Positions 44,295 to 59,983 of a stretch of 64,000 nucleotides of DNA are shown in pieces. Origin of the DNA: Pseudomonas sp. BN102 (GTDB lineage Bacteria; Pseudomonadota; Gammaproteobacteria; Pseudomonadales; Pseudomonadaceae); assembly GCF_029871245.1 (NCBI RefSeq), contig NZ_SSON01000043.1:1-64000 (forward strand), given 5' to 3'. The notes beneath the pieces were generated by a model that saw nothing but the letters and a program-made list of their open reading frames with translations, was not told the origin of the DNA and searched no databases. The position numbers were made by a program, and so were the translations under genes. The stretch's first letter is position 1; each line of letters begins with the position of its first letter.

Positions 44295-44576
44295 TCAGGC
44301 CTTCATCGCCGCCATCAGGGCGTTACTGCCCAGCAGCTTCAGCATCCGTTTGAAGTTGTAAGCGAGCACATGCAGGCTCATTTCCGTGCTCACCCGGTCG
44401 AGCGTCTTGGTGAGGAAATGGGTGGCGCCCATCCAGGCCTTCAACGTGCCGAACGGATGCTCCACCGTCTGGCGGCGGATGCGCATCATCTCCGGTGCCT
44501 GATCCAGGCGGGACTGCATCGTGTCGAGCACCGACTCATGTTCCCAGCGACTCCCCGCCGCTGTGCGCTCGGTCAA
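44295..44576 (-). mobile_element. IS1182-family transposase C-terminal fragment
   Basis: The 93-residue frame contains SRWEHESVLDTMQ, RIRRQTVEHPFGTLKAWMG, ATHFLTKTL and STEMSLHVLAYNFKRMLKLL, the conserved C-terminus of IS1182-type transposases (normally about 450-500 residues). Everything before SRWEH is missing, and a TTG is the only start. It is cut on its upstream side by a short REP-like stretch (CCTACGG/CCGTAGG, 44582-44601). Non-functional remnant. Confidence 0.85.
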
Positions 44577-44639
44577 CCCATCCTACGGCTGGCCCCTCCG
44601 TAGGGTGCGCTGCGCGCAGCTTAGACTCTAAATGGAATA

Positions 44640-44679
44640 AATAAATACAAATTAAGTATTTATTGTTCTAAAACAGAAC
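44640..44679. promoter_or_regulatory. Tandem palindromes upstream of the XRE-cupin operon
   Basis: AATAAATAC/GTATTTATT (44640-44648 and 44656-44664, exact 9-bp arms) is followed immediately by GTTCT-AAAAC-AGAAC (44665-44679, exact 5-bp arms). They lie 45-85 bp before the small ORF, in AT-rich DNA. Probable autoregulatory operators of the XRE protein, overlapping its promoter. Confidence 0.55.
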
Positions 44680-44724: not shown

Positions 44725-44886
44725 ATGGACCGCGCAGACAACGTCATCGACATCGCCCGCTACCGCACGCGCCGCCAGGCCCGCCGCATAGCCGAGCTGA
44801 TGTGGCTGATGTATGCGTCTCGCGCCGGCTACGGGGCGTTTCAGGTGCTGCAGCAGCATCGGGACAGCAGCACTCGAGAGGCGTGA
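44725..44886 (+). CDS. Small basic protein of unknown function (53 aa)
   Basis: Starts MDRADNVIDIARYRTRRQAR and is rich in arginine, with a hydrophobic turn LMWLMYASRAGYGAF and end SSTREA. A very good RBS (AAAGGAGAA, seven bases) and coupling to the XRE-cupin gene four bases downstream support real translation. The amphipathic Arg-rich helix could bind nucleic acid or the regulator. No family recognised. Confidence 0.65.
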   Translation: MDRADNVIDIARYRTRRQARRIAELMWLMYASRAGYGAFQVLQQHRDSSTREA

Positions 44887-44890
44887 AACC

Positions 44891-45520
44891 ATGGGGCAGT
44901 CCTTATCTGCCGGTGCCCATGACCAGGTGTTGATCGCGGCGCCAAGCGCAGTGGATGACCCCATAGGCCAGCGAGTTGCCAGCAACCTGTTGCGCCTGCG
45001 CAGCAAGCGCAATCTGTCCCTGGATGGCCTGTCGCGTGTATCCGGCGTGAGTCGCGCAATGCTGGCGCAGATCGAATCGGGCCGCAGCGTGCCCTCCATC
45101 AAGGTGCTGTGCAAGATCGCCCAGGGCCTGAAGGTCTCGGTGGCCGCCTTTCTTGATGACCGCGCCTTCGACGGTGTCGCGGTGCTGCCGGCGCGCCAGA
45201 GCAAGCGTCTGGTGAGCAGCGACGGCAGCTTTGTCAGCCGCGCGCTGTTCCCCTTCGATTGTTCGCGCCAGGTGGAATTCTATGAACTGCGCCTGGCGGG
45301 CCTGGCCACCGAGGATTCCCCCGGCCACGCTCCCGGCACCCAGGAGAACCTGGTGGTGGCCCAGGGTGTGCTGGAGATCGGCGTGAACGAGGAGCGCTTC
45401 CTGCTCGCCACCGGCGATTCGATCCTGTTCTACGCCGACCAGCCCCATGCCTACCGCAATCCCTCGGACAGCGAAGCGGTGGCCTACCTGGTCACCACCT
45501 ATGCCGAGCGGCTCGACTGA
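44891..45520 (+). CDS. XRE-family regulator with C-terminal cupin domain
   Basis: 209 residues. HTH at about 28-85 (VASNLLRLRSKRNLSLDGLS, SRAMLAQIESGRSVPSIKVL), cupin at about 125-205 (GTQENLVVAQGVLEIGVNEE, ATGDSILFYADQPHAYRN) with conserved HAY. Such proteins are single-component sensors of amino acids, polyamines or sulfur compounds. ATG lies four bases after the small ORF stop. The tandem palindromes upstream suggest autoregulation. Targets may include the Met-rich gene beyond the shared terminator (speculative). Confidence 0.88.
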   Translation: MGQSLSAGAHDQVLIAAPSAVDDPIGQRVASNLLRLRSKRNLSLDGLSRVSGVSRAMLAQIESGRSVPSIKVLCKIAQGLKVSVAAFLDDRAFDGVAVLPARQSKRLVSSDGSFVSRALFPFDCSRQVEFYELRLAGLATEDSPGHAPGTQENLVVAQGVLEIGVNEERFLLATGDSILFYADQPHAYRNPSDSEAVAYLVTTYAERLD

Positions 45521-45620: not shown

Positions 45621-45658
45621 AAAAAAGCCCGGCGGGTTTCCCGGCCGGGCTTTTTTTT
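45621..45658. terminator. Bidirectional rho-independent terminator
   Basis: AGCCCGGC (45626-45633) and GCCGGGCT (45644-45651) pair, with an inner GGG-TTT-CCC, flanked by A6 on the left and T8 on the right. It ends both the XRE-cupin operon (plus) and the Met-rich gene (minus). Confidence 0.92.
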
Positions 45659-45668
45659 GTCCTGCCGA

Positions 45669-46175
45669 TCAGCAGGTGCAGCACATCATGGGCATGCCAT
45701 TGCAGCTCATCATCATCGGCATGCCGCACTCCATCATTTTCATCATCAGGGCGCAGCAGTTCTTGAACATCTCCATGTTCATGCCCTGCATCGGCATCAT
45801 CTTGCACATCATTGCGTCGCCCTGCATGGAGCACTCCATCATGCACTTCATGGACGGCATGGGCATGCCCATCCCCATCATCGGCATCATGTTCATCATG
45901 CCCATCATCGGCATCATCGCCATGCCGGCCTGGGACATGCACATCATCGACATGTTGCCACAGTGCATCATCACCGGCATGCCGCAGTTCATCATCATCG
46001 CCATCATTTCGGCGCTGTTGCGGAACATCGCCATGTCCATGCCCATGGCTGGCATCATCTTGCACATCATGCCGTCGTCCTGCATGTCGCACGCCATGGT
46101 GACCATCATCATGGGCATGCCCATCATCGGCATCATGGGGTTGGTGGACATCGGCATCTGCATGGCATTCATCAT
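45669..46175 (-). CDS. Methionine/cysteine-rich duplicated protein, unknown function
   Basis: 168 residues. By hand count 72 are Met (43%) and 15 Cys. Two repeats in exact register: cysteines 29, 38, 64, 72, 79 correspond to 115, 124, 150, 158, 165 (constant offset 86, no indel), with shared pieces such as MMCKMMP and CGMP. A Met-only linker (MPMMGMMNMMPMMGMGMPMP) joins them. RBS GGGAG lies seven bases before ATG and a terminator follows, so it is a normal monocistronic gene. No clear signal peptide. Soft thiol and thioether ligands suggest Cu(I)/Ag(I) binding; a sulfur reserve is another reading beside the sulfur island. No family recognised. Confidence 0.8.
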   Translation of the reverse strand: MMNAMQMPMSTNPMMPMMGMPMMMVTMACDMQDDGMMCKMMPAMGMDMAMFRNSAEMMAMMMNCGMPVMMHCGNMSMMCMSQAGMAMMPMMGMMNMMPMMGMGMPMPSMKCMMECSMQGDAMMCKMMPMQGMNMEMFKNCCALMMKMMECGMPMMMSCNGMPMMCCTC

Positions 46176-46208
46176 GGTGGCGCTCCCTCAAAGGATGGAA
46201 TGGGTAAC

Positions 46209-46249
46209 CGGAATGGCGTCGATTCTAGGAGCGCCATTCCGTCGAGCAA
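46209..46249 (-). promoter_or_regulatory. Promoter with overlapping palindromic operator for the Met-rich gene
   Basis: CGGAATGGCG (46209-46218) and CGCCATTCCG (46232-46241) are exact 10-bp inverted arms with a 13-bp spacer. The minus-strand spacer holds TAGAAT (possible -10), and TTGCTC lies 16 bp upstream of it (possible -35). It is 34 bp from the start codon, an ideal place for a repressor. The rest of 46250-46522 shows no gene. Confidence 0.55.
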
Positions 46250-46522
46250 GATGACGAGACAGCGTCGACCAGGTACGCCGGGCATACGATTTCCTCATCG
46301 ATGGCAGCGTATTCGGACTTGGTAACAGCGATTTCCATGCGATCACGTACGATTGAGCATCGATAGCGTCTTCCCTGACGTAATGGATATGCACTTCAGG
46401 AATTAGCAAATAACCCTAGTGAATATTCAATCTAACGAAGAGGCACTTTTTTACGCCTCGGCTCCTGTGCCCATAAAAGGGCGGAAGAGCCCGTCCTTGA
46501 ACTATCCACACGTGTTCGCGCA

Positions 46523-47467
46523 TCAGTCGCCGACCGCCTTCGGCTGCCACACCGCCGACGCCACATCCACCCGCCGTGGCAGCAGGCGGTTTTCCCGGAA
46601 CAGATCGGCCGTGCGTTGTTGCGCCGCGATGATCTCCGCGGTCACTGGGCCTATCGGCGAAGCCGGGCGATGTTCGAAGGTGCGCGCAACCACAGCGGGT
46701 GCCAGTCCGGTGAAGCGCGCCAGTATGGCGATGCTCTCGTCGCGGTGGCTGCGGGTCAGCGCTTCCGCCGCGCTCAGCTCATCCAGCAATTGCCGGATGA
46801 ACGCCGGGTTGGCGTCCACATAGGCGCGGGCGCCCAGGACGAAGGGGCCGATCAGGTCCAGCCCTTCGCCATTGGCCAGCAGGCGTGCGCGGCCTTCCAG
46901 TTCCATTGCCGAATAGAACGGGTCCCAGATGGCCCAGGCGTCCACGGCACCCTGCTCGAAGGCGGCACGTGCATCGGCGGGACTGAGGAACACCGGCTGG
47001 ATATCGGTGATGCCCAGCCCGGCTCGCTTGAGGGCACGCAGCATCAGGTTGTGGGCGCTGGAGCCCTTCTGCAGCGCCACCTTGCACCCCTTGAGCCCAG
47101 CCACGTCGGTGATCGCACTGTCCGTCGGCACCAGGATGACTTCGGCCTGCGGCTTGGCGGGCTCCGAGCCGAGGTACAACAGGTCGGCGCCGGCCGCCTG
47201 GGCGAAGATGGGCGGAATGTCACCGGTGGAACCCACATCCAGGCTGCCCACGTTCAGCGCTTCGAGCATCTGCGGGCCGGCGGGAAACTCGATCCATTCC
47301 ATCCGGGTACCGGCGAAACGCTTTTCCAGCAGGCCATGTTCCTTGGCCAGCACCAGACTGGAGGACGCCTTCTGGTAGCCGATGCGCAAGGTGGCCGGGT
47401 CGGCCACGGCACCTTGCGCCAGTGTCAGCAGCGCCAATAGCGCCGCCCCAAATCCAAGTCGTTTCAT
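46523..47467 (-). CDS. Aliphatic sulfonate-type ABC binding protein (SsuA-like)
   Basis: 314 residues. Signal peptide MKRLGFGAALLALLTLAQGAVA (about 1-22), then LRIGYQKASSSLVLAKEHGLLE, LNVGSLDVGSTGDIPPIFAQA, VALQKGSSAHNLMLRALKRAG and DAWAIWDPFYSAME, all typical of SsuA. Its ATG lies one base after the aldo-keto reductase stop, so the genes are coupled. It captures sulfonates in the periplasm. No permease or ATPase follows here, so it probably feeds the transporter encoded at 58465-60739 or one elsewhere (inference). Confidence 0.9.
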   Translation of the reverse strand: MKRLGFGAALLALLTLAQGAVADPATLRIGYQKASSSLVLAKEHGLLEKRFAGTRMEWIEFPAGPQMLEALNVGSLDVGSTGDIPPIFAQAAGADLLYLGSEPAKPQAEVILVPTDSAITDVAGLKGCKVALQKGSSAHNLMLRALKRAGLGITDIQPVFLSPADARAAFEQGAVDAWAIWDPFYSAMELEGRARLLANGEGLDLIGPFVLGARAYVDANPAFIRQLLDELSAAEALTRSHRDESIAILARFTGLAPAVVARTFEHRPASPIGPVTAEIIAAQQRTADLFRENRLLPRRVDVASAVWQPKAVGD

Positions 47468-47468
47468 A

Positions 47469-48512
47469 TCAGTCCTGCCAATCGGTAGAGGGTTTTTCCC
47501 AAAGGTTGATGCCGCCTTCCACGGCGTAACGATCGATCTCCGCCAGCTCATCGGAAGTGAACGCCAGCTTCTGCAACGCGGCGACGTTCTCCACGATCTG
47601 TTCCGGCCGGCTCACGCCGATCAGGGCGGAGGTCACGCGCGCATCCCGCAATGTCCAGGCCAGGGCCAGTTGGGCCAGGCTCTGGCCACGTCGCCGGGCG
47701 ATCTCGTTCAGCGCACGGGCGCGCTGGATATTCGCCGGAGCCAGGTGCTCAGCCCGCAGCGAGGCGCCGCCCGGACGATTGACCCGCGCGTCTCCCGGGA
47801 CTCCCTCGAGGTATTTGTCGGTCAGCAGGCCCTGGGCTAGCGGTGTGAAGGCGATGACCCCGGCACCCAGCTCATCGGTCGTCGCCAGCAGGTCCTTCTC
47901 CACCCAGCGGTTGAGCAGGTTGTAGGCCGGCTGGTGAATCAGCAGCGGCACCTTCCACTCGCGCAGCAGCGCGGCGATTTCTCGCGTCTTGCCCGCCGAG
48001 TAGGACGAGATGCCGACATGCAGGGCCTTGCCCTGCTGCACGGCACTGGCCAGCGCGCCTGCCGTTTCCTCCAGCGGGGTGTCGGGGTCGAAACGGTGGG
48101 AATAGAAGATGTCCACGTACTCCACGCCAAGCCGCTGGAGACTCTGGTCCAGGCTGGACAGCAGGTACTTGCGCGAGCTGCCGCCCTGGCCATAAGGGCC
48201 GGGCCACATGTCCCAGCCTGCCTTGGTGGAAATCACCAGCTCGTCGCGGTAGGCGGCAAAGTCTTCGCGCAGCAAGCGCCCGAAATTGATCTCGGAGCTG
48301 CCATAGGGCGGGCCATAGTTGTTGGCCAGGTCAAAGTGATTGATGCCCAGGTCGAAGGCGGTGCGCAGCAGCTCGCGCTGGGTGTCGATGGGGGTGGTGT
48401 CACCGAAGTTGTGCCACAGCCCGAGGGACAGGGCGGGCAGCACCAGGCCACTGCGGCCGACACGTCGGTAAGGCATGGATTCGTAGCGCTGCGGAGCGGC
48501 GATATAGGTCAT
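47469..48512 (-). CDS. Aldo-keto reductase (YghZ/Gpr-like)
   Basis: 347 residues. AKR motifs: GINHFDLANNYGPPYGSSE with the catalytic Asp/Tyr, STKAGWDMWPGPYGQGGSSR, YVDIFYSHRFDP, and the cofactor-binding end ALIGVSRPEQIVENV. This is the AKR14/YghZ branch, which reduces aldehydes with NADPH. Between a flavin monooxygenase and a sulfonate-binding protein it may reduce the aldehyde that desulfonation releases (inference). Begins 59 bp after the monooxygenase. Confidence 0.88.
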   Translation of the reverse strand: MTYIAAPQRYESMPYRRVGRSGLVLPALSLGLWHNFGDTTPIDTQRELLRTAFDLGINHFDLANNYGPPYGSSEINFGRLLREDFAAYRDELVISTKAGWDMWPGPYGQGGSSRKYLLSSLDQSLQRLGVEYVDIFYSHRFDPDTPLEETAGALASAVQQGKALHVGISSYSAGKTREIAALLREWKVPLLIHQPAYNLLNRWVEKDLLATTDELGAGVIAFTPLAQGLLTDKYLEGVPGDARVNRPGGASLRAEHLAPANIQRARALNEIARRRGQSLAQLALAWTLRDARVTSALIGVSRPEQIVENVAALQKLAFTSDELAEIDRYAVEGGINLWEKPSTDWQD

Positions 48513-48571
48513 CAGGTCGACTCGTGAATCATTGAGTGGAACGCCTTGATGTGGGCTTCAGCCCGCCGGGT

Positions 48572-49894
48572 TCAGGCGAAACGATTGGCCGGGCGCGTCA
48601 GCCCCAGATGCTCGCGCAAGGTGGTGCCTTCGTACTCGGTGCGAAACAAACCGCGCCGTTGCAGCTCCGGCACTACCAGGCCGGCGAAGTCCTCCAGTCC
48701 ACCGGGTAGGTGCGGAACCAGAACGTTGAAACCATCGGCGCCCTGCCCTTCGAACCAGGCCTGGAGCTCATCGGCTATGCGTGCCGGCGTGCCGATCAGG
48801 CTGTAGTGGCCACGTCCACCGGCAATGCGCCGCCCCAGTTGGGCGAGGCTGAGGCTTTCCTCCCCGGCCAGTTCGGTGAGCAGCTTCTGCCGGCTCTGCT
48901 GGCCATCCTGGGTCAGCGGCAATTCGGGAAGCGGCCCGTCGAGCGGGCATTGCGACAGGTCGAAGTTGCCCAGCATGCGCCCGAGCAGCGCCACGCCGAC
49001 GCGGGGTTCCACCTGCTCCTGGAACTGTTCGAACTTGTCCCGTGCCTCGGCTTCGCTGGAACCCACCACCGCGAATACGCCGGGCATGATCTTCAGCTCG
49101 TCCGGATGGCGGCCAAACTGCTCCAGCCGGCCCTTGAGGTCGCGATAGAAGTCCTGTGCGCGGGCCAGGGAGGATTGCGCGGTGAACACCACATCGGCGG
49201 TTTCGGCGGCCAGCGCGCGACCGGTTTCAGAGGACCCCGCCTGCACCACCACCGGCCGCCCCTGCGGTGAGCGGGCAACGTTCAGCGGCCCCTGTACGCG
49301 GAAGTGCTCGCCCTGGTGATTCAGCACATGCAATTTGGCCGGGTCGTAGTACTGGCCGCTGGCCTTGTCGCGCAGGAAGGCGTCGTCTTCCCAGCTGTCC
49401 CAGAGGCCGCTGACGACCTGGTGGAACTCGCGGGCGCGGGCATAGCGCTCACTGTGGCCAAGGTGTGCCTCGCGGTTGAAGTTCAGGGCTTCGGCGGCGG
49501 CATCCGAGGTCACCAGGTTCCAGCCGGCACGGCCACCGGAGATATAGTCGAGCGAGGCGAACTTGCGCGCCACGTGGTACGGCTCGTTGTAGCTGGTGGT
49601 GACGGTGCTGATCAAGCCGATGCGCTCCGTGACCGCCGCCAGTGCACTGAGCAGGGTCAACGGCTCGAAACCGGTGGAGCGCGCCATATGGCTGGCATAC
49701 GCGGTGGTGGGCGCGGCAACGCTGTCGGCGACGAACAGGGTGTCGAACTTCGCCGCCTCGGCGACTTGCGCGAGGCGTTTGTAGAGCGCGAAGTCGAGCG
49801 TATCGGCGGGCACGTCCGGATGCCGCCAGGCGGCAACGTGGTGCCCGGTGGCCATGAGGAAGGCGCCGAGGCTTAGCTGTCTTGGTTGGGTCAT
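48572..49894 (-). CDS. LLM-class FMN-dependent monooxygenase (NtaA/SnaA/DszA family)
   Basis: 440 residues. Family marks: MTQPRQLSLGAFLMATGHHVAAWRHP, FDTLFVADSVA, SVAAPTTAY, LVTSDAAAEALNF (flavin contact region), VVQAGSSETGRALAA, GTPARIADELQAWF. Start at MTQPRQ; a longer frame lacks an RBS. Members use FMNH2 from a partner reductase to oxidise organosulfur or aminopolycarboxylate substrates. Co-directional with a TonB receptor, aldo-keto reductase and SsuA-like protein, it probably cleaves a C-S bond. No flavin reductase gene lies in the window. Confidence 0.9.
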   Translation of the reverse strand: MTQPRQLSLGAFLMATGHHVAAWRHPDVPADTLDFALYKRLAQVAEAAKFDTLFVADSVAAPTTAYASHMARSTGFEPLTLLSALAAVTERIGLISTVTTSYNEPYHVARKFASLDYISGGRAGWNLVTSDAAAEALNFNREAHLGHSERYARAREFHQVVSGLWDSWEDDAFLRDKASGQYYDPAKLHVLNHQGEHFRVQGPLNVARSPQGRPVVVQAGSSETGRALAAETADVVFTAQSSLARAQDFYRDLKGRLEQFGRHPDELKIMPGVFAVVGSSEAEARDKFEQFQEQVEPRVGVALLGRMLGNFDLSQCPLDGPLPELPLTQDGQQSRQKLLTELAGEESLSLAQLGRRIAGGRGHYSLIGTPARIADELQAWFEGQGADGFNVLVPHLPGGLEDFAGLVVPELQRRGLFRTEYEGTTLREHLGLTRPANRFA

Positions 49895-49973
49895 GGGGGT
49901 CTGTCCTGGATCGATGGCGATGCCGCCCGGCCGGTCTCTGCCGGCTCGGGCGGTCCCTGCACGCAGGTGCTGG

Positions 49974-52229
49974 TCAGAAGTCGAAGTCCTTGCGCAGCTG
50001 CACGCCGAAGTAGCGCTGGTCGTCTCGTGGAACGGCGCGAAAGATGTGGTTGCCGCCACTGGCCAGGGACTGGGCGTAGGACTTGTCGGTCAGGTTCTTG
50101 CCCACCAGGGCCACGCGCCAGCCCGCGTTGTAGTCGGCCAGGCCGACGCTGGCGTTCCAGATGCCGTAGGCGCCCTGCACGGTGTCCTTGTTCTGGTCGA
50201 GGCTGAACTGCACCTCGTCCTGCCAGCTGTAGTCGGTGGACAGCTCCACATCCAGACCGTTGTCCAGCGGGATGCTGTAGTCGGCGCGCACGTAGGTCTT
50301 CCAATCCGGGGTGAAGGGCAAGCGTCCACCATCGATGTTGCAGCTGGCCGCGGCGCCCGGCGGGCAATTGAAGTGGTCCACCCGCGCCTTGGTGTAGGCC
50401 ACGCCACCGGAGAAGCTGAGCTGCCGGGTGGCCTGGTAACTCGCATCCAGTTCAATGCCCTGGGTCTTCACGCTGCCGGCGTTGATCAGGCGGGTCACCA
50501 CCTGGTTGGCCACGGTGTCGAAGAAGTTCGCCTGGTAGTTGTCGTAATCGGTGTGGAACACCGCCAGGTTGGCGGTCAAGCGCTTGTCCAGCGCGGTGGC
50601 CTTCAGGCCTACCTCGTAGGAGTCCGATGTTTCGGGCTTGAGTGGATCGGTGTCACGCGGCTGCATGTTGAAGAACACGTTGTAGGCCGGGCCCTTGTAG
50701 CCGCGCGAGTAGGTCACGTAGCCCATCAGGTCGTCGCTGAGGTCGTACTGCAGGCCGGTGCGTCCGCTCCAGCCATCCTCGTCCACCGAGCCGGAACTGG
50801 CGGTGGAAGGCTGGATGCCCGTGACGGCGGTGGCCGAGGTGGACACGCGGCGGTGGTCGTACTCCAAGTCGTCGTGGGTCCAGCGCAGGCCGAAGAGCGC
50901 GCGGAAGTCCCTGGTGAAGTTGAAGGTGTTTTCGCCGAACAGCGCGTAGCTGTCGTTGGTCACGCTGAAGTCGGCGCGGCCGGTATTGGGAACCCCTCCA
51001 TTGACCGACAGGCGCCGGTAGTTCTCGTCGGAGCGACCATGGAAGTAGTAGGCGCCGAGCACGTACTCGTTGAATTCGCCCCTGGGCGAGGTCAGGCGGA
51101 ACTCCTGGGAATACTGGTCGTAGTCCACCTCGCCCTTATCATGGGAGGCCGTCAGCGGCAGCGCGGCCCGCCGGTCGCCGTCCTGGAACTGGGTGTTGTC
51201 CCAGCCACGCCAGGCGGTGATTGAGGTCAGGGTGAAATCCCCCAGTTTCCAGTCGGCCTGCCCGGACAGGCCGGTGTTGATGTCCTCGACGTGCGTCTTG
51301 AAGTCACTGTTGATCTTGCGGTTGTGGGCGCTGAGCGCCACCGGGCGCAGCGAATCGGCGAAGGCGGCGCTGCTGGTGGAGGTGACCACCCCGCTCGGCA
51401 GGGTGTCCTCGCCGTCCATGTAGTCGCCGATGAGGGTGAAGGTGAAGTCTTCGCTGGGTTCGAACACCAGCTTTCCTCGCACGCCCTTGCGGTCGTAGCC
51501 GTTGACGTCATGGCCGTTGGCGACGTTCTCGACGTTGCCGTCGTACTTGCCCAGCAGGGTGCTCAGGGAGCCCTTGAGGCTGTCGGTGAGGCGGCCGCCG
51601 ATGCCGAAGCGCAGGCGGTTCTCGTTGCCGCCACCGAAGTGCGAGTAGTCCAGGTAGCCGTGGCCCTGCTCCGGCGGGTCCTGGCTGACGATATTGAGCA
51701 CGCCGGCCGAGGCGTTCCTGCCGAACAGGGTGCCCTGGGGTCCGCGCAGCACTTCGATGCGTTCGACGTCCAGCAGGTCCAGGGTGGACTGGCCGGGGCG
51801 GCCAAGCGCCACGCCATCGATCACGGTGGCCACGGTGGGCTCGACGCCTGGTGAGGTGGAAATGGTGCCCACGCCACGGATGAACAGCGAGGTGTCCTTG
51901 TTCGAGGCACCGGTGCGGTAATTCAGTGTAGGCACCTGCTGGACGATGGCGGAGACGTTGTTGCGGTTGTCCCGCTCCAGTTGCTCGCCCTGCAGCACGG
52001 TAATGGCCACCGGCACTTCCTGCAGGCTGGCCTCGCGGCGGGTCGCCGTCACGGTGACCGCCTTCAGGGTGGTGGTGGATTCGGCGGAAGGCTCGCTGGC
52101 CCCGCCCTCTTGCGCCTGGACCGCGCTCCCCAGCGCCGCCAGTAGGATGGCTACCGCCAGCGGACTGCGACGCGCGCCGTGGTGGAGCCCCAGGCCGCCG
52201 TTGGCGGCCGCTTTGGAAAATCGGTTCAT
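49974..52229 (-). CDS. TonB-dependent outer membrane receptor
   Basis: 751 residues. Long signal sequence (about 1-39, ending AVQA), TonB-box region TLKAVTVTATRREASLQEVP, plug domain with SLFIRGVGT and VERIEVLRGPQGTLFGRNASAGVLNIVS, 22-strand barrel, terminal KDFDF. In the sulfur locus it likely imports sulfonates or sulfate esters too large for porins, in the manner of SftP (inference). It heads the minus-strand operon, 79 bp before the monooxygenase. Upstream lies a perfect LacI-type operator, suggesting repression by the divergent gene. Confidence 0.9.
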   Translation of the reverse strand: MNRFSKAAANGGLGLHHGARRSPLAVAILLAALGSAVQAQEGGASEPSAESTTTLKAVTVTATRREASLQEVPVAITVLQGEQLERDNRNNVSAIVQQVPTLNYRTGASNKDTSLFIRGVGTISTSPGVEPTVATVIDGVALGRPGQSTLDLLDVERIEVLRGPQGTLFGRNASAGVLNIVSQDPPEQGHGYLDYSHFGGGNENRLRFGIGGRLTDSLKGSLSTLLGKYDGNVENVANGHDVNGYDRKGVRGKLVFEPSEDFTFTLIGDYMDGEDTLPSGVVTSTSSAAFADSLRPVALSAHNRKINSDFKTHVEDINTGLSGQADWKLGDFTLTSITAWRGWDNTQFQDGDRRAALPLTASHDKGEVDYDQYSQEFRLTSPRGEFNEYVLGAYYFHGRSDENYRRLSVNGGVPNTGRADFSVTNDSYALFGENTFNFTRDFRALFGLRWTHDDLEYDHRRVSTSATAVTGIQPSTASSGSVDEDGWSGRTGLQYDLSDDLMGYVTYSRGYKGPAYNVFFNMQPRDTDPLKPETSDSYEVGLKATALDKRLTANLAVFHTDYDNYQANFFDTVANQVVTRLINAGSVKTQGIELDASYQATRQLSFSGGVAYTKARVDHFNCPPGAAASCNIDGGRLPFTPDWKTYVRADYSIPLDNGLDVELSTDYSWQDEVQFSLDQNKDTVQGAYGIWNASVGLADYNAGWRVALVGKNLTDKSYAQSLASGGNHIFRAVPRDDQRYFGVQLRKDFDF

Positions 52230-52356
52230 CTTCGTTTCACTGCCCTTGCTGTGACCAGACTGGCCCTCCGTCTTCGCGGTCGGGGCCTCGTTGAGGAGCT
52301 GTCGAACGTCTGGTCTCGCTCGTGCGAGTGGCAGTGGGTTGGAGACAAGCTCTACT

Positions 52357-52370
52357 TGGTAGCGCTACCA
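52357..52370. promoter_or_regulatory. LacI/GntR-type operator between divergent genes
   Basis: TGGTAGCGCTACCA is a perfect 14-bp palindrome with the central CG-containing core typical of LacI-family operators; outer bases AC...GT extend the symmetry around one mismatch. It lies 128 bp from the TonB receptor start and 77 bp from the LacI-type gene start. Confidence 0.75.
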
Positions 52371-52446
52371 TGTGTAGTATCAGAGCGCTGTTGTTAGTGC
52401 GTCAAATACTCAAAAATTGATTTCATATTCTTAAGGGAAATAAGAG

Positions 52447-53493
52447 TTGAGCACCTCGCCCCCCTCTCCCCGCAAACGCCGTGGATCCGGCCGCGTCACC
52501 CTGAGCGAAGTGGCCCGGCACGCCGGCGTCGGCGCCATCACGGTGTCGCGCTTCTTCAACCAGCCGGAGCAAGTGTCCGGCGAGCTGCGCGAGCGCATCC
52601 AGGCAGCAGTGACCGAGCTGGGTTACGTGCCCAACCGAGTGGCCGGCGGCCTGGCCTCGGCACGGGGGCGTGTGGTGGGCATGGTGATCCCGAACATCTC
52701 CGGACCGATCTTCGCGCCCACCATCCAGAGCTTCAGCGACTCCCTGGCGCGCCACGGCTACCAGTTGCTGCTGGCCTCCAGCTACTTCTCGGAGGAACAG
52801 GAAGAAAGCGCCGTGCGTGCCTTTCTCGGCTGGTCGCCAGCGGCACTGGTGGTCACCAGCCATTTCCACAGCGCCGGCACCGAGAAACTGCTGGCCGAGG
52901 CGGATATCCCGGTGGTGGAAATCTCGGACTACCGGCCCGAGCGCGCGCCTACCCAGGTAGGTTTCCTCCACTATGAGGTGGGCGTCAGCGCGGCACGCTA
53001 CCTGCTGGACAAGGGCTACCGGAGCATCGCCTTCGTACAGAACAGCGCGGCGGGTGACTTCAGCGCCCTGGAACGCCGTGACGGCTACGCCGCCACCGTG
53101 CAGGCCGCGGGACTGGAACCCTGGGTGTTCGTGCCAAGCGCCGACAAGGCACCTTTCGAAGCGGGCAAGCAGGCCATGGAAGCCCTGATGAACCGCAACC
53201 CGCGCCCGGACGCCATCATCTTCGCCAACGACAACCTCGCGGCCGGCGGACTACTCGCCGGCCAGCGCGCGGGCCTGCGCATCCCGGAAGATTGCGCGGT
53301 GGTGGGTTTTGGCGACTACCCCTTCGCCGAGATGCTGCTGCCGAGCCTGACCACCATCAAGCCACCCTCCCGGGAGATCGGCGAGGTGGCGGCCATGCGC
53401 TTGCTGGAAACCTTCGGCGCGCTTCCCGTAGAAGGCGAGCCGATGCGGCTGAACCTGCTGGATTGCCAGGTAATCGCGCGGGAGAGCGCCTGA
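52447..53493 (+). CDS. LacI-family transcriptional regulator
   Basis: 348 residues. HTH plus hinge at about 16-70 (RVTLSEVARHAGVGAITVSR, FFNQPEQVS, YVPNRVAGGLAS), then a periplasmic-binding-protein-like domain (VVGMVIPNISGPIFAPTIQS, PDAIIFANDNLAAGGLL). It starts with TTG preceded by AAGGGAA. The domain layout is nearest to gluconate-type (GntR) repressors, but the divergent TonB receptor and shared palindrome point to control of the sulfur uptake operon. Effector unknown. Convergent with the sfnR-like gene. Confidence 0.88.
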   Translation: MSTSPPSPRKRRGSGRVTLSEVARHAGVGAITVSRFFNQPEQVSGELRERIQAAVTELGYVPNRVAGGLASARGRVVGMVIPNISGPIFAPTIQSFSDSLARHGYQLLLASSYFSEEQEESAVRAFLGWSPAALVVTSHFHSAGTEKLLAEADIPVVEISDYRPERAPTQVGFLHYEVGVSAARYLLDKGYRSIAFVQNSAAGDFSALERRDGYAATVQAAGLEPWVFVPSADKAPFEAGKQAMEALMNRNPRPDAIIFANDNLAAGGLLAGQRAGLRIPEDCAVVGFGDYPFAEMLLPSLTTIKPPSREIGEVAAMRLLETFGALPVEGEPMRLNLLDCQVIARESA

Positions 53494-53533
53494 AGCTGGA
53501 AGGCATGAAGTGGGGCGCGCGATATCGCACCCC

Positions 53534-54586
53534 TCAACCCAGCTCGCCGATCTTTTCCAGCCTGGCTCGCACAATGTTGCGGCTGATGCCCAGCAGCCGG
53601 CCGGTCTGTAGCTGGTTGCTGTGGCAGAAACGGTAGGCCGAGCGGAACAGGGTTTCTTCGATGTATTCGTAGAGGTTGGGCAGGTTTTTCTCGAACAGGT
53701 CGTTGAGTACCGCATCTAGGGCGTCTGCCGCCTGGGGGGCAGGCACTGCGAGGGAGTGCTCTTCCTGGCCGCGGGCGAGGGGGAGCAGGTCAACCAGGTG
53801 CAGGTCGTTGGGCTGCACCTGTTCGTTGCGGCACACCAGCAGCGCGTGGTGAATGGCGTTCTCCAGTTCGCGGATGTTGCCCGGCCAGCTATGGGCCAGC
53901 AGCACCCGTTCGGCGTCCTGGCTGAGGGTGGCGCGGTTGTAGCCCAGGCGCTGGCAGTGTTCCTGGATGAAGAATTCGGCCAGGGGCAGGATATCGCCCG
54001 GACGTTCCCGCAGTGGCGGCAAACGCAGCGTCGCCACGTGCAGGCGATAGAACAGGTCCTCGCGGAAGTGCCCGGCCACCACGGCATCGGCCAGGTTGAC
54101 GTTGGTCGCCGCGATGACCCGAACGTTGATGGGCACTGGCGTGCGCGAGCCCAGGCGTACCACCTCGCGCTCCTGCAGCACCCGCAGCAGCTTCACCTGC
54201 ATGGCCAACGGCAGGTCGCCGATCTCGTCGAGGAACAGCGTTCCGCCGTTGGCCGCTTCGAACCAACCAGCCTTGTTCGCCGTGGCGCCGGTGAAGGCGC
54301 CCTTCTCATGGCCGAACAGTTCGCTCTCCACCAGGGTTTCGGGGAAAGCACCGCAGTTGACGGCAACAAAGGGTTCCTTGCTGCGTCGGCTGAGGTGGTG
54401 GATATGGCGCGCGACCAGCTCTTTGCCAGTACCGGTCTCGCCGATGATCAGCGCATTGGCCTCGCTGGGCGCCACCCGCTCGATCCGGCTGAGCAATTCC
54501 TGCGAGCGCGGGTCCTTGAAGACCAGCACGGTCGCACGGACCGACTTGGTCAGTTCACGGGCATTGGGGTGAGTGAGCAGTGACAT
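53534..54586 (-). CDS. Sigma-54-dependent activator without sensor domain (SfnR-like)
   Basis: 350 residues. The AAA+ domain begins almost at the N-terminus: Walker A GETGTGKE (49-56), GAFTGA (96-101), FLDEIGD; C-terminal Fis-type HTH ([19 protein letters not shown]). There is no regulatory N-terminal domain, as in SfnR of Pseudomonas putida, whose level rather than a ligand sets activity under sulfate limitation. AAGGA precedes the ATG. Divergent from the sulfur transport operon, whose three candidate sigma-54 promoters it could drive. A 26-bp palindrome lies 62 bp upstream of its start. Confidence 0.9.
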
Positions 54587-54647
54587 CTCGTATTCCTTGC
54601 TTTCTGATGCGCCCGGGCATCTTGCATAAAGTCTTTTAGATAATTAA

Positions 54648-54673
54648 GGAATTAATAAATATTTATTAATTCC
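54648..54673. promoter_or_regulatory. Perfect 26-bp AT-rich palindrome in the divergent sfnR-like/transport region
   Basis: GGAATTAATAAAT (54648-54660) is followed without spacer by its exact reverse complement (54661-54673). It lies about 160-190 bp upstream of the sigma-54 promoter at 54836, the range of enhancer sites, and also in front of the sfnR-like gene. An activator or autoregulatory site is likely; the protein is not proven. Confidence 0.7.
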
Positions 54674-54835
54674 CAAGAGAAATATGTGCATTTTTCCCTG
54701 CGCCGATTGCTGAGCCCGCAGCAGTCCTCCAGCACGCCTGCTGAAATCCCAGCACTCGCGAAACACCGATAAGGCGCAACCGCTCAGGCCTCCACGCCAC
54801 GTCGCACCTGGGTTACGCGGCAGCTGCGGGGTTGC

Positions 54836-54851
54836 TGGCATGCATTTCGCT
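54836..54851 (+). promoter_or_regulatory. Sigma-54 promoter of the sulfur transport operon
   Basis: CTGGCATG-CATT-TCGCT: GG at 54837-54838 and GC at 54849-54850, exactly 10 bases between. It lies 55 bp before the start codon of the binding protein. Confidence 0.78.
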
Positions 54852-54905
54852 CCTTTCCTCCGCAAATGCCGGACCAACTGGCAGGAACTGGAAAGGAGAA
54901 CTCCC

Positions 54906-55979
54906 ATGAAGAATCCATGGCGCGCCGGACTGGCAGCGCTCGTCGCAGTGTTCGCCGTCGGCCAGGCCCTCGCGGCCGAAGTGCCGGCCTCCGTGAAGAT
55001 CGCCATCGTCGCCTACACCCAGGGCGGCAAGCCGGTGTTCGGTGGCATCCCGGGACGTGTGATCGAAGAAGGCTGGCTGGAGAAGGAGCTGGCGGCCAAG
55101 GGCGTGAAGCTGGACTGGATCGCCCTGCCCCACGCCGGAGCCGGTCCGCAGATCAACGAAGGCTTCACCAACAACAGCATCGACTTCGCCGTGCGTGGCG
55201 ACCTGCCCTCGGTCATCGGCGGCGCCGGTGGAGTACCGGGCAAGCTCATCGTCCCCGGCGGCAGCGGCAATAATGTCTACCTGGTGGTGCCCGCCTCCTC
55301 CAGTGCCCAGAGCATCGACGACCTCAAGGGCAAGCGCCTGGCGCTGCATCGCGGTCGCCCGTGGGAGTTCGCCTTCAGCAACTACCTGGCCAGCAAGGAC
55401 CTCAAGCTCAGCGACTTCAAGGTCGCCAACCTCAACCCGCAAGTCGGCGCCGCAGCGGTGTCGGCCGGCAAGGTGGATGCCGCCGTGCTGCTCAGCGAGT
55501 CCTACCTGCTGGAAGACAAGGGCGTCGGCCGGATCATCTGGTCCACCAAGCAGGGCGACAACAGCTGGCGCCTGATCTCCGACCTCTGGGGCACCGATGA
55601 CTTCATCCAGCGTTACCCCGAAATCACCCAACTCCTCGCCACCGCCTGGGTCAAGGCGGCCTGGTGGATATCCCAGGAGCAGAACAAGGACGCCTATTAC
55701 CAGCTCTCGTCCCGCGCCGGCACTCCCGAAAGCGTGCTGCGTCGCGATGACCAGAACGACCCGGTGGCCTGGAAGGATCGCTGGGCACCCAAGAGCGATG
55801 AACAGCTCAAAGCCCACTACCGCGCCCTCACCCAGTACGCCCTGGCCAACAAGCTGATCCGCCAGGACTTCGACATCACCCAGTCCTTCGCCACCCGCTT
55901 CACCAATCAGGCCATCCTCGACCTCAAGCTGGAGAACTACTGGCCCGCCCTGAGCAACCAGGTCACCGCCAGCCACTGA
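54906..55979 (+). CDS. Sulfonate-type ABC periplasmic binding protein
   Basis: 357 residues. Signal peptide MKNPWRAGLAALVAVFAVGQALA (about 1-23); NrtA/SsuA-like fold with GGIPGRVIEEGWLEKELAAK, DFAVRGDLPSVIGGAGG, GKRLALHRGRPWEFAFSNYL and VLLSESYLLEDKG. AGGAGA precedes this ATG, which lies downstream of the sigma-54 promoter; a longer frame would start at the promoter itself. It is related to but distinct from the binding protein at 57377-58468 in the same cluster, so the shared ABC transporter may accept two ligand carriers. Confidence 0.88.
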   Translation: MKNPWRAGLAALVAVFAVGQALAAEVPASVKIAIVAYTQGGKPVFGGIPGRVIEEGWLEKELAAKGVKLDWIALPHAGAGPQINEGFTNNSIDFAVRGDLPSVIGGAGGVPGKLIVPGGSGNNVYLVVPASSSAQSIDDLKGKRLALHRGRPWEFAFSNYLASKDLKLSDFKVANLNPQVGAAAVSAGKVDAAVLLSESYLLEDKGVGRIIWSTKQGDNSWRLISDLWGTDDFIQRYPEITQLLATAWVKAAWWISQEQNKDAYYQLSSRAGTPESVLRRDDQNDPVAWKDRWAPKSDEQLKAHYRALTQYALANKLIRQDFDITQSFATRFTNQAILDLKLENYWPALSNQVTASH

Positions 55980-55988
55980 CAGGCCGAA

Positions 55989-56018
55989 TGCTGCTGGCGC
56001 ACTGCTGCGCCAGCAGCA
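55989..56018 (+). terminator. Strong hairpin after the first binding protein
   Basis: TGCTGCTGGCGCA and TGCGCCAGCAGCA form a perfect 13-bp stem around CTGC, nine bases past the stop. No T-run follows, so it may act as a 3' stabiliser giving extra binding protein, or as an inefficient terminator. Confidence 0.6.
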
Positions 56019-56104
56019 AGGAGTTGCTGCCACTCCAGCATGCGCATCCCGCGGGCAAGCGGAAAATCGCCCGCAACCCCCGCCCCGCAAGACTTCCGAC
56101 GAAC

Positions 56105-56120
56105 TGGCGCGAAACCTGCT
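56105..56120 (+). promoter_or_regulatory. Candidate sigma-54 promoter of the monooxygenase gene
   Basis: CTGGCGCG-AAAC-CTGCT: GG at 56106-56107 and GC at 56118-56119 with 10-bp spacing, 44 bp before the monooxygenase ATG. One base of the -24 box and one of the -12 box differ from consensus. Confidence 0.6.
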
Positions 56121-56163
56121 CAAACCCCATCGACCGTATCAACCGCTTCCTTACGAGGCCCCC

Positions 56164-57372
56164 ATGAGCATTGAATTCTTCACCCGTCTGCCACTGCATG
56201 GCGAAACCCAGTACCTGCCAGGCGACCCGCGCAACCGTGGCGACTGGCACCGAGGTGAGCACAGCACCGGCGCCGTCTCCAACTTCCGCATCGGTGACCA
56301 CTTCACCTACATCGACTACCTGGGCCAGATCGCCCGCGCAGCGGAAATCAACGGCTTCGGCGGCGCCCTGATGGTCAACGCACCCACCGGCGAGGAACCC
56401 TGGACTGTCTGCTCCCTGCTGGCGCGGGAAACCCGCACCCTCAAGTTCGTCACCGCCTTCCAGCCCTATCACTACACGCCCTGGGTCGCCACCCAGCAGG
56501 CCGCCACCTACCAGCGCGCCACCGGCAACCGCTTGGTGTGGAACATCATCAACGGCGGTTCCGATGCCATCCAGCGCCAGGTCGGCGACTTCAGCAGCCA
56601 CGACGAACGCTATGACCGCGCCATCGAGTTCCTCGATGTGGTCAAGGGCTACTGGCACAACGAGAACTTCCGCTACGAAGGCAAGTACTACCGCGCTGAA
56701 GGCGGTGGCCTGCGTGGTCCGCTGAAGAAGGCCGAACTGCCGCTGATCTGCACAGCCGGCTCCTCGATTCCGGCCCGCGAGTTCGCCGCCAAGCACGCCG
56801 ATTACTACCTGATGCGCGCCGAGCATCCCGACGAGGTCCGTGCGTTGATCGCCGACGTCCGCGAGCGCGCCCTCAAGTACGGCCGCAGCGATATCCGCTT
56901 CGGCATGTCCATCGACGTGATCACCCGTGAAACCGAAGAAGAAGCCCGCGCCGAAGCCAAGCGCTTCTTCGACGAAGGCATCGCCAAGGGTGCGGTGAAG
57001 GCGGTCGCCGCCCACGCCGGTCTGCGCACCGCGCGCAAGCTCAGTTACGAGCACGGCTACGCCGAGAAAAGTGAAACCCAGGGCTACGACGAGTTCTTCA
57101 TCTACCCCAACGTCTGGGCCGGTTTCGGCTACATCGGCATTCCGCCGGGCTGCGCCCTGGTGGGCAGCTACGAAAACGTGGTCGCGCGCATACGCGAATA
57201 CAACGCGGCCGGCATCGACCTGTTCTTCCTCGCCGGCTACCCGCACCTGGAGGAGGCCTATCGCCTGGGTGAACACATCCTGCCGCACTTCCGCAGTGAA
57301 CGCGCCGAGCTGGTCCGCAGCCACGACAGCCTGCCGGAACTGCGTTCCGTGAACGGACCCGCCGGAGCCTGA
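56164..57372 (+). CDS. SsuD-like FMN-dependent alkanesulfonate monooxygenase
   Basis: 402 residues of the bacterial luciferase-like family. FTRLPLHGETQYLPG at the start, GFGGALMVNAPTGEEPW, VTAFQPYHYTPWVATQQAAT, RLVWNIINGGSDAIQRQVGD (flavin/substrate loop) and CTAGSSIPAREFAAKHADYY match SsuD-type enzymes. It converts a sulfonate to aldehyde and sulfite using FMNH2 and oxygen. No flavin reductase (ssuE) lies in the window, so it depends on one elsewhere. It may have its own sigma-54 promoter and leads directly into the second binding protein (4-bp gap). Confidence 0.88.
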   Translation: MSIEFFTRLPLHGETQYLPGDPRNRGDWHRGEHSTGAVSNFRIGDHFTYIDYLGQIARAAEINGFGGALMVNAPTGEEPWTVCSLLARETRTLKFVTAFQPYHYTPWVATQQAATYQRATGNRLVWNIINGGSDAIQRQVGDFSSHDERYDRAIEFLDVVKGYWHNENFRYEGKYYRAEGGGLRGPLKKAELPLICTAGSSIPAREFAAKHADYYLMRAEHPDEVRALIADVRERALKYGRSDIRFGMSIDVITRETEEEARAEAKRFFDEGIAKGAVKAVAAHAGLRTARKLSYEHGYAEKSETQGYDEFFIYPNVWAGFGYIGIPPGCALVGSYENVVARIREYNAAGIDLFFLAGYPHLEEAYRLGEHILPHFRSERAELVRSHDSLPELRSVNGPAGA

Positions 57373-57376
57373 CGCC

Positions 57377-58468
57377 ATGGATGCGCATCGTCGTCTGCTC
57401 GATTTCAGCCTTGCCCTGACCGTGCTCCTGTCCATGCTGCCGTTGCTCGGCATGGCCGAGCCGCTCCCGGAGGTGATCCGTATTTCCACGGGCGCCGGCT
57501 CGCCGCTGACACCCAAGCTCTCCGGCGCCAATTCCGGCCTGACCGCCGCACGCCAGGCCGTGGAGCAGGAGTTCGCCGCAGACGGCGTGCGTATCGAATG
57601 GCTGCATCCGCTGGGTGGCGGCGTGGCCAGCAACGAAGCCCTGGCCAGCGGCGCCGTGGATATCGGCTATGCCGGCGAATTCCCGGCCATCTTCGGCCGC
57701 GCCGCCGGCCTCAAGACACGCTTCGTCGGCGGCGGGTTCCGGGGCAACAACGCCTACCTGGTGGTGAAGGCGGATTCCCCCGCCCATGACTTGGCCGAGC
57801 TCAAGGGCAAACGCATCGCCATCATGAAAGGCCAGCCCTGGGAGTACGGCTTCGATCGCCTGCTGCGCAGCAAGGGGTTCACCCAGGCGGATTTCAAGGT
57901 CCTCAATCTGAGCCTGGTGGACTCGCGAACCGCGCTCGAACAGGGCCGTATCGACGCGCTCTACGCACCCGGCGTGTATGGCGCCAACCTGGCTGCCGAT
58001 GGCCGTGGACGTATCCTCTGGTCGACCCGCGAGGCGCCCAGGGACTGGCAGTTCGCCGCGGACTTCTTCGTCGCCGAGGACTTCGCGCAAAAGTACCCGA
58101 CCGCCGTGAAGCGTTTCCTCAAGGCGGTGATCCGCGTCAGTGCCTGGGCCAGCGATCCGAAGAATGGCGATGAACTGTTCCAGACCTGGGTGCCCCAAGG
58201 CTACAGCGTCGAGCAGCAATGGAAGGAATACCGCGACAGCGATTTCCTGTTCCGCTTCTCGCCCATCCCCGATCCCTTCCTGCTGGCCCACTACCGGGAA
58301 GTCGCCAACTACATGCTGGAGAACCGCCTGATCCGCCGCCCGGTGGACATCAACGCGTGGGTGGACCGCAGCTTCGTCGACGCCGCACTGCGTGAACTCC
58401 AATTGGAGCGCCACTGGCCGGAATACGACCGCGACGGCAATCCACTGCCCCAGGTTGCCCGGCAATGA
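57377..58468 (+). CDS. Second sulfonate/sulfate-ester-type ABC binding protein
   Basis: 363 residues. N-terminal hydrophobic signal (LLDFSLALTVLLSMLPLLGMA, about 7-27); then IRISTGAGSPLTPKLSGANS, GAVDIGYAGEFPAIFGRAAG, GKRIAIMKGQPWEYGFDRLL and DARTALEQGRIDALY-like segment SRTALEQGRIDALYAPG. Overlaps the first permease by ATGA. Similar in length and motif order to the 54906-55979 protein (for example HRGRPWEFAF versus MKGQPWEYGF), suggesting an old duplication with divergence of ligand. Confidence 0.88.
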   Translation: MDAHRRLLDFSLALTVLLSMLPLLGMAEPLPEVIRISTGAGSPLTPKLSGANSGLTAARQAVEQEFAADGVRIEWLHPLGGGVASNEALASGAVDIGYAGEFPAIFGRAAGLKTRFVGGGFRGNNAYLVVKADSPAHDLAELKGKRIAIMKGQPWEYGFDRLLRSKGFTQADFKVLNLSLVDSRTALEQGRIDALYAPGVYGANLAADGRGRILWSTREAPRDWQFAADFFVAEDFAQKYPTAVKRFLKAVIRVSAWASDPKNGDELFQTWVPQGYSVEQQWKEYRDSDFLFRFSPIPDPFLLAHYREVANYMLENRLIRRPVDINAWVDRSFVDAALRELQLERHWPEYDRDGNPLPQVARQ

Positions 58469-59226
58469 CCCTGGCCCATCCGATGCTTCGGCTGCCGGTC
58501 ACGCTTGCCGCGCCTCTGCTGGTGCTGGGCCTGTGGTACTGGGTTGCAGCCAATGAGCTGGCACCGACCACTCTGCTGGTGCCGCCGGCCCAGGTGCTCG
58601 AAACCCTCTGGCTGATGCTCGGCAGCGGCGAGCTGGTGGAAGCGGCGGGCACCACCCTGTCGCGGGTCGCCGCCGGGTTTCTCGCCGGTAGCCTGGTGGG
58701 GATCACCACCGGTGCGGTGCTCGCGCTTTCCCCTCGGGTTGACCGCAATCTGGGCCTGGTCATCAACCTGCTGGCCCAGGTTCCGGCGATTGCCTGGACG
58801 CCCCTGATCATCTTCCTGCTGGGCATAGACGAGGCCTACAAGGTCTTCCTGATCGCCTTCGCCTGTTATTTCCCTGTCGCGGTAAAAACCCGCGAGGGCA
58901 TTCTCGGCCTGTCGCCGCGCCTGCTGGAGGCCGCCGCCGCACTCGCGCTGCCGCCTGCCCTGCGCTACCGCAAAGTGATACTGCCCGGCGCCCTGCCCTC
59001 GTTATTGGCCGGGCTGCGTATCGGCCTGTCCAAGGCCTGGATCGCCGCCATCTTCGGCGAGCTGTTCGCCTCCGGCAGCGGCCTGGGATACCTGATGAAT
59101 AGCGGCCGCATCTACTTCCAGATGGACGTGGTCCTGGCTGCCATGCTCGCCACTGGGGCGCTCGGCTTCCTGAGTGACCGCTTCCTGCTGTGGCTGCATG
59201 ACCGCCTGCCCGGAGCCCGACCATGA
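58465..59226 (+). CDS. ABC transporter permease (SsuC/AtsB-like)
   Basis: 253 residues with about six membrane helices (first near VTLAAPLLVLGLWYWVAA). EAA-like loop LLEAAAALALPPALRYRKVILPGALPSLLAGLRIGLSKAW. ATGA overlaps on both sides couple it to the binding protein before and the second permease after. Two different permeases plus one ATPase imply a heterodimeric channel, as for the atsR-atsB-atsC sulfate-ester system. Confidence 0.9.
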   Translation: MTLAHPMLRLPVTLAAPLLVLGLWYWVAANELAPTTLLVPPAQVLETLWLMLGSGELVEAAGTTLSRVAAGFLAGSLVGITTGAVLALSPRVDRNLGLVINLLAQVPAIAWTPLIIFLLGIDEAYKVFLIAFACYFPVAVKTREGILGLSPRLLEAAAALALPPALRYRKVILPGALPSLLAGLRIGLSKAWIAAIFGELFASGSGLGYLMNSGRIYFQMDVVLAAMLATGALGFLSDRFLLWLHDRLPGARP

Positions 59227-59960
59227 GCAGCCTCGACTATCCCTTGCGCCGCGTCGCCATCGGAGCCGTGCTCGCCTGCGCCACCCTGGCACTGCTCAGT
59301 TGGCGTGGCCCGGCGATCCTCCCGGACACCCGGCTGCTGGAGCTCACCCACCTGCTTGCGCAAGCCAGCCTTGGCAGCCTCGGGCGCCTGCTGGCCGGAC
59401 TCGCCCTGGGGCTGCTCACCGGCAGCCTGCTGGGCGCACTGATGGCCACCTGGCCACTGCTGGATCGCTTGCTGGGCTCGCTCGTCCACCCGTTGCGGCA
59501 GATGCCGCTGTTCGGCTGGATCGCCCTGCTGGGGGTTTGGGCCGGCTTCGGCGAAGCCTCCAAGGTGATCTTCATTGCCCTGGCAGTCAGCTACACCATG
59601 ATCATCGCCGCCTATCAAGCCGTGCGCGCCGTGCCACCGCGCCTGGATGAAGTGGCACGGGTCTACCAGCTCGGCTGGGGCAAGCGTCTGCGCGTCTTGC
59701 TGCTACCCACCATCCTTCCGGCCTGGCTGGGCGGCCTGCGTATCGCCCTGGCCGTGGCCTGGAGCGCCACCATCGGCGCCGAAATCCTCATGGGCGCCAG
59801 TGCCGCCGGCCTGGGTGGTTTCATCTGGGGGCAGCGCGAGGTCGGCCGTTTCGACCTGGTCCTGCTCGGCACCGCCCTGATCGGCACTTTCGCCGTGCTC
59901 TCCGATTTCGCCCTGCGCCAGACGGAGCAGCGGCTCCAGCGCTGGCTGCGCGGGTACTGA
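59223..59960 (+). CDS. ABC transporter permease, second subunit (SsuC/AtsB-like)
   Basis: 245 residues, about six membrane helices. EAA-like loop: LDEVARVYQLGWGKRLRVLLLPTILPAWLGGLRIALAVAW, clearly homologous to the preceding permease. It starts inside the stop of that gene (ATGA) and ends 23 bp before the ATPase, which has AGGAGG upstream. Confidence 0.9.
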   Translation: MSSLDYPLRRVAIGAVLACATLALLSWRGPAILPDTRLLELTHLLAQASLGSLGRLLAGLALGLLTGSLLGALMATWPLLDRLLGSLVHPLRQMPLFGWIALLGVWAGFGEASKVIFIALAVSYTMIIAAYQAVRAVPPRLDEVARVYQLGWGKRLRVLLLPTILPAWLGGLRIALAVAWSATIGAEILMGASAAGLGGFIWGQREVGRFDLVLLGTALIGTFAVLSDFALRQTEQRLQRWLRGY

Positions 59961-59983
59961 ACGCCAATCTCCAGGAGGACGTC

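Follow-up and report, generated by a model that had tools for sequence, protein, structure and literature searches.

Bacteria keep stores of carbon, phosphate, nitrogen and iron, but a protein dedicated to storing organic sulfur is not known to us from any of them. In plants, a role as sulfur reserve has been proposed for the Met-rich seed storage proteins. Met and Cys are also the classic ligands of Cu(I), and the copper storage proteins of the Csp type are four-helix bundles lined with Cys; MrpX-type peptides are Met-rich scavengers of HOCl. On the regulatory side, SutR (YdcN) of Escherichia coli is an HTH-cupin regulator of sulfur utilization, according to PMC8464067 and PMC11332829, which cite that role. 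The window (the whole stretch of 64,000 nucleotides from Pseudomonas sp. BN102 that was analyzed) encodes a protein of which about half is Met and Cys:

45669..46175, minus strand: Met/Cys-rich protein gene, 168 aa (sequence and ORF composition, dN/dS, alignment)
45930..46097, minus strand: repeat 1 (residues 27-82), with Cys 29, 38, 64, 72 and 79
45672..45839, minus strand: repeat 2 (residues 113-168), with Cys 115, 124, 150, 158 and 165, plus 140, 141, 166 and 168

The computed composition, 72 Met and 15 Cys and thus 87 of the 168 residues (52%), agrees with the hand count of the original prediction. By comparison, Met in the coding-like ORFs of control stretches averages 2.4% and reaches 9.3% at most (n = 757). 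GC at the three codon positions of the ORF is 33, 37 and 96%. When the protein is compared with itself, an offset of 86 residues gives 41 identities in 82 positions and five Cys-Cys pairs, against at most 29 identities at each of the other offsets from 60 to 109. The repeats are identical at 32 of 56 positions (mean 10 and maximum 21 in 10,000 shuffles) and have the Cys spacings 9, 26, 8 and 7 in common. The predicted offset of 86 with identical spacings holds in the window; the exact figure is local, and the relatives keep the geometry. Inspection by eye shows no evident signal peptide, on which basis the protein is probably cytosolic.

A scan of species genomes yielded 119 relatives, and the 80 listed (loci whose names begin with L) are those used below; among these matches listed (80 of 119), all are Pseudomonas by record. 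The Met/Cys profile matches 55 of 398 genomes of Pseudomonas's family; a sample of 398 genomes from the phylum gave six matches, which again belong to that family, so that in the searches made the protein was found only in Pseudomonas and its family. The 80 loci were aligned with the window and four more members, giving 85 proteins of 159-174 aa with 37-44% Met. Fourteen of the 15 Cys are present in no fewer than 83 of the 85, and C79 in 76. The cysteine geometry, which the original prediction took to be maintained by selection, is conserved among orthologues: 83 of 85 proteins have the spacing 9, 26, 8, 7 in repeat 1, another spacing being seen in one and a gap in one more, and repeat 2 keeps 9, x, 8, 7 in all 84 scored, x being 27 in 67, 26 in 16 and 30 in one. 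Some stretches of the alignment are strongly conserved, for example CGMPMMMSCNGMPMMCCTC. As the prediction had it, no known family is recognizable; the protein has no match in Pfam or NCBIfam (E 1), PDB sequences (E 10), PHROGs, plasmids or phages, and no paper on it was found in the literature searched. AlphaFold2 predicts two strand-strand-helix-strand-strand repeats at low to moderate confidence (pLDDT 72.5, pTM 0.66); a deeper alignment retained the hairpin and helix and lowered confidence to pLDDT 58.9. No match stood out when the predicted structure was compared with known folds.

The Met residues are conserved in position as well as in number, and a specific fold or ligand is therefore likely; this also counts against a pure reserve, for which less would suffice. 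Could the ligand be a soft metal? A protein that sequesters Cu(I), Ag(I) or Au(I) in the cytosol through clusters of Cys and Met, its costly synthesis tied to sulfur supply by the SutR-like regulator described below, would account for the 14 conserved Cys and for stretches such as CGMPMMMSCNGMPMMCCTC. The surroundings of the gene speak against it, since motifs of HMA domains or multicopper oxidases occur near none of the 80 listed loci, P-type ATPase motifs near two (two of 80 control stretches likewise) and a loose CopC/CopD motif near one, compared with five of 80 controls. No CueR-like or cop-box-like pattern, as drawn from general knowledge, occurs in 85 upstream regions, and the searches of Pfam and NCBIfam at E 1 and of the PDB at E 10 returned no sequence family match, to Csp proteins or otherwise. 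The original Cu(I)/Ag(I) hypothesis would fit the conserved Cys and Met, and the motif tests gave no sign of copper genes or copper operators in the vicinity; we regard metal sequestration as unlikely, though far from negligible.

The extreme Met content would also suit an oxidant sink, in which Met and Cys scavenge HOCl or peroxide and are recycled by methionine sulfoxide reductases, and antioxidants are co-induced by sulfur starvation in P. aeruginosa, according to PMC12581299. We consider this very unlikely: when MsrA and MsrB motifs were scored, the former was found near one of the 80 listed loci and the latter near none, many of the conserved residues are Cys, and the absence by eye of a signal peptide tells against it too.

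The signals upstream of the gene are as follows:

46183..46189, minus strand: ribosome-binding site GAGGGAG, conserved as AGGGAG
46222..46253, minus strand: proximal promoter CATCTTG, 16-nt spacer, TAGAAT, drawn from conservation in relatives
46383..46436, minus strand: distal conserved block (TTAGA..GATTATTTCTTTCGGTTATTT...ATATCCAT in relatives), about 205-262 bp upstream of the start
46210-46218 / 46232-46240: candidate palindrome of the original prediction, in the window sequence

The predicted ribosome-binding site is visible in the window. In relatives the proximal block keeps the order CATCTTG ... TAGAAT ... AGGGAG, with TAGAAT present in 84 of 85; a scan with a strict sigma-70 consensus called no promoter, the proximal CATCTTG/TAGAAT included. 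The palindrome had been proposed as an operator overlapping the promoter; it is present in the window and missing from the nearest relatives, L003-L005, and as a non-conserved sequence was rejected in that role. The distal block is strongly conserved and lies apart from the promoter; candidate roles for it are a second promoter, an operator or the start of a small RNA.

Is the frame itself real? Runs of CAT and ATG contain no stops and might by themselves have kept a low-complexity frame open. Two antisense frames are indeed open, in 84 and 73 of the 85 relatives, because of these runs; as they stay open in most relatives, openness alone is little proof. The sense frame, however, has a conserved promoter, ribosome-binding site and start, a median dN/dS of 0.22 (3210 non-independent pairs, dS 0.2-1), and variation that falls on the third codon position: in non-Met columns, position 3 varies in 84 of 92, position 1 in 53 and position 2 in 51. 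Codon statistics, which might have exposed an artefact, thus speak for a real gene, and an artefact of composition can hardly be the explanation. Comparison of the sequences confirms a conserved gene under purifying selection.

What this gene does may be better judged from its partner, a regulator gene lying tail-to-tail with it, which is the main clue and was absent from the original prediction:

44891..45520, plus strand: SutR-like regulator with HTH_3 and Cupin_2; ATGGGG is its likely start, giving 209 aa (the ORF list has it begin at 44813)
44725..44886, plus strand: conserved ORF of 53 aa that directly precedes the regulator gene
45622..45658, no strand assigned: bidirectional terminator between the convergent genes (hairpin z -5.3 and -5.9)

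The terminator had been predicted and proves to be a strong bidirectional hairpin by z-score, unlike the output of a simple terminator scanner, which reported none there. The regulator resembles E. coli SutR across both the HTH and the cupin domain (34% identity over 162 aa, E 1e-28; 35.8% for the best relative's regulator), which makes it SutR-like and a putative controller of sulfur-utilization genes. The 53-aa ORF has no Pfam match; it is basic (MDRADNVIDIARYRTRRQARR...) and perhaps a leader or co-regulator. Adjoining the operon is a transposase DDE fragment (Pfam DDE_Tnp_1, 44295-44576, minus strand).

Among the listed loci the HTH-cupin gene is the only widely conserved neighbor of the Met/Cys gene. 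By tblastn the convergent regulator is present in the window and in 73 of the 80, at a distance of 14-337 bp in 68 loci and 1.0-4.7 kb in five, and the 53-aa ORF lies directly upstream of it in all 73 (72 by tblastn, L054 by a sequence-pattern search). Of the seven loci that lack it, three (L043, L046, L051) are ones whose sequence ends near the gene; L021, L050, L055 and L062 have the protein with no regulator in reach in sequence that does not end there, which counts against a module. At a cut-off of E 1e-40 for the regulator, the two proteins occur in identical sets of 55 among the 398 family genomes, including G359, where both are fragments, and G198, where a partial regulator gene lies about 10 kb from the Met/Cys gene. 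Their divergence is correlated (Mantel r 0.86, 0/999 permutations, 73 pairs), as shared descent would likewise give. In G115, G122, G198 and L008, about 4.7-10 kb separates the convergent genes, and the terminator gap therefore looks like an insertion spot.

The promoter of the regulator operon carries a starvation-type element, which recurs once more in the window:

44630..44671, plus strand: starvation-type promoter element AAATGGAATAAATAAATACA ... TATTTATTGTTCTAA before the 53-aa ORF
54644..54675, no strand assigned: the same element in the form of an AT-rich palindrome (GGAATTAATAAATATTTATTAATTCC), flanked by the genes of a sigma-54-type regulator and a sulfonate-type binding protein

Regulator promoters share an AT-rich AAAAAGAATTAATAAATA, followed after about 10 bases by TATTTATnGTTATAA. 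With a matrix built from the left half of this element, the regulator operon of the window scores 34.3 and the next best site in the 64 kb, at 54644, scores 27.2; in 240 control chunks of 3.2 kb the 99th percentile was 16.9 and the maximum 21.4. With up to one mismatch, the core AANGAATTAATAAATA has a single match in the 6.48-Mb genome, at 54646, and the regulator operon's own site differs from it by two. The 54644 site is kept in the genomes G008 and G015, with one change in one of them. Among 36 chosen genomes, five of 21 module carriers have the exact core, with six copies in all (three belonging to the regulator operon and three to the sulfonate site), and none of 15 non-carriers has it; when one mismatch is allowed, eight of the carriers and three of the non-carriers have a match. 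The element must therefore vary, 13 of the 21 carriers having no core even at one mismatch, and this absence counts against the shared-element argument. Another pattern, TATTTATNGTTNTAA, was dropped as a link to other genes, its sole match in this genome at up to one mismatch being the regulator promoter.

The matrix also finds a site (score 20.9) before the lsfA-type peroxiredoxin gene that lies upstream of ssuA in this genome. According to PMC12581299 and PMC4199769, lsfA is a sulfur-starvation gene, and the former puts its rise in sulfur-starved P. aeruginosa at more than 45-fold. Of 30 lsfA promoters, 25 could be anchored by their start; these are related and not independent, and 12 score higher than 95% of their own shuffled versions, the other 13, which do not, counting against the link. 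Ten of the 25 reach 13.5, compared with seven of 455 control upstream regions (350-bp regions against 200-bp). The regulator operon thus has in its promoter an element common to starvation genes, as a member of their regulon should, given the sulfonate operon site and those 12 lsfA promoters. CysB may bind this AT-rich element; the literature searched yielded no Pseudomonas consensus for CysB sites.

Sulfonate genes adjoin the module in the window itself:

46523..60739, no strand assigned: sulfonate-scavenging island with SsuA-type binding proteins, LLM monooxygenases, an ABC ATPase and a TonB receptor (family searches)
58465-59960: two permease-like ORFs of the island, identified by eye

The same is seen elsewhere. 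Of 71 full-length loci, 24 have sulfonate-type genes no more than about 6 kb away, as against three of 80 control stretches, a comparison in which the seeds came from the window only, the window was excluded, the seed classes were chosen after seeing it, related loci are not independent, and the controls come from four genomes with two pairs overlapping. With window-only seeds and the window excluded, such genes are near 25 of the 80 listed loci in all and in seven of 17 distinct context groups outside the window; 44 loci form a single group, 15 of them with sulfonate genes. Against this, 55 of the 80 have none within about 6 kb, and 47 have none when wider seeds are used. A loose sulfatase motif is near 15 of the 80 loci and nine of 80 controls. 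The 81-kb contig that holds the window is a sulfonate hot spot, with nine of the genome's 17 SsuA-family matches, five of them at 65-75 kb, beyond the window, and some being pieces of one gene.

The conserved family, the convergent regulator, the identical sets of 55 genomes, the shared element and the enrichment of sulfonate genes all favor a two-arm module that follows sulfur status, made of a reserve protein and a starvation-induced, SutR-like off-switch, a tentative reading that we hold to be almost as apt to be right as wrong. In its first arm, a folded two-repeat protein with 87 sulfur atoms per 168 residues would be made from the conserved proximal promoter while sulfur is plentiful. 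In the second, sulfate starvation would induce the operon of the 53-aa ORF and the regulator through the AT-rich element common to lsfA and the sulfonate-uptake promoter; the regulator would then act on the sulfur-costly Met/Cys gene and repress it, and the existing protein would be degraded, returning Met and Cys. The module's link to sulfur is well supported by the comparisons above, while we infer repression and storage. Repression is the economical reading because cells in starvation should not spend sulfur on a protein composed half of these two residues. The reserve role that had been suggested from the outset has gained a co-inherited SutR-like regulator, a starvation-type element and sulfonate enrichment; the shut-off that went with it would follow from repression.

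The direction of control might nonetheless be the reverse. The distal block bears a weak resemblance to the starvation element, with 20 of 81 exceeding the 95% level of shuffles as against six of 81 in the case of the proximal block. This might point to induction of the gene instead of its shut-off and so counts against the shut-off model, and comparison of upstream regions established no operator common to the regulator and Met/Cys promoters. The same sulfur-regulon evidence would then fit an overflow sink that takes up cysteine, sulfide or sulfite in toxic excess once starvation is over, the regulator activating the Met/Cys gene when sulfur returns. Activation would suit the distal block as well as repression suits the proximal promoter; we judge such a sink improbable.

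If the two-arm module with its reserve is the right reading, this would be the first bacterial protein dedicated to holding sulfur in reserve, a folded store of Met and Cys that forms a single inherited module with a SutR-like off-switch of its own, induced by starvation; we regard that claim as possible rather than probable. A module that joins a sulfur-packed protein to a sulfur-starvation regulator makes a bacterial sulfur store directly testable, and in soil pseudomonads that are harmless. Even as a metal binder, a protein with 43% Met in fixed positions would be unusual in its fold and its ligands; the searches made turned up no related family, and if the metal reading is correct it would become a new metal-binding family.

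The plant Met-rich seed storage proteins are alike in their proposed sulfur-reserve role, but the protein of the window is bacterial and has no Pfam match. With Csp proteins and metallothioneins it shares its richness in Cys and possible binding of soft metals; it differs in its 43% Met and in having no sequence match to them, and may differ in fold, AlphaFold2 giving it mixed beta/alpha hairpin-helix-hairpin repeats at low to moderate confidence (pLDDT 72.5, 58.9) where Csp is a four-helix bundle. The extreme Met content recalls MrpX-type peptides, but MsrA and MsrB motifs are nearly absent near the Met/Cys loci, the protein has many conserved Cys, and its regulator is of another kind. That regulator finds its counterpart in SutR: although the annotation of 15 kb around E. 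coli sutR shows no partner rich in Met and Cys, the two proteins have the same HTH and cupin architecture and are 34% identical over 162 aa.
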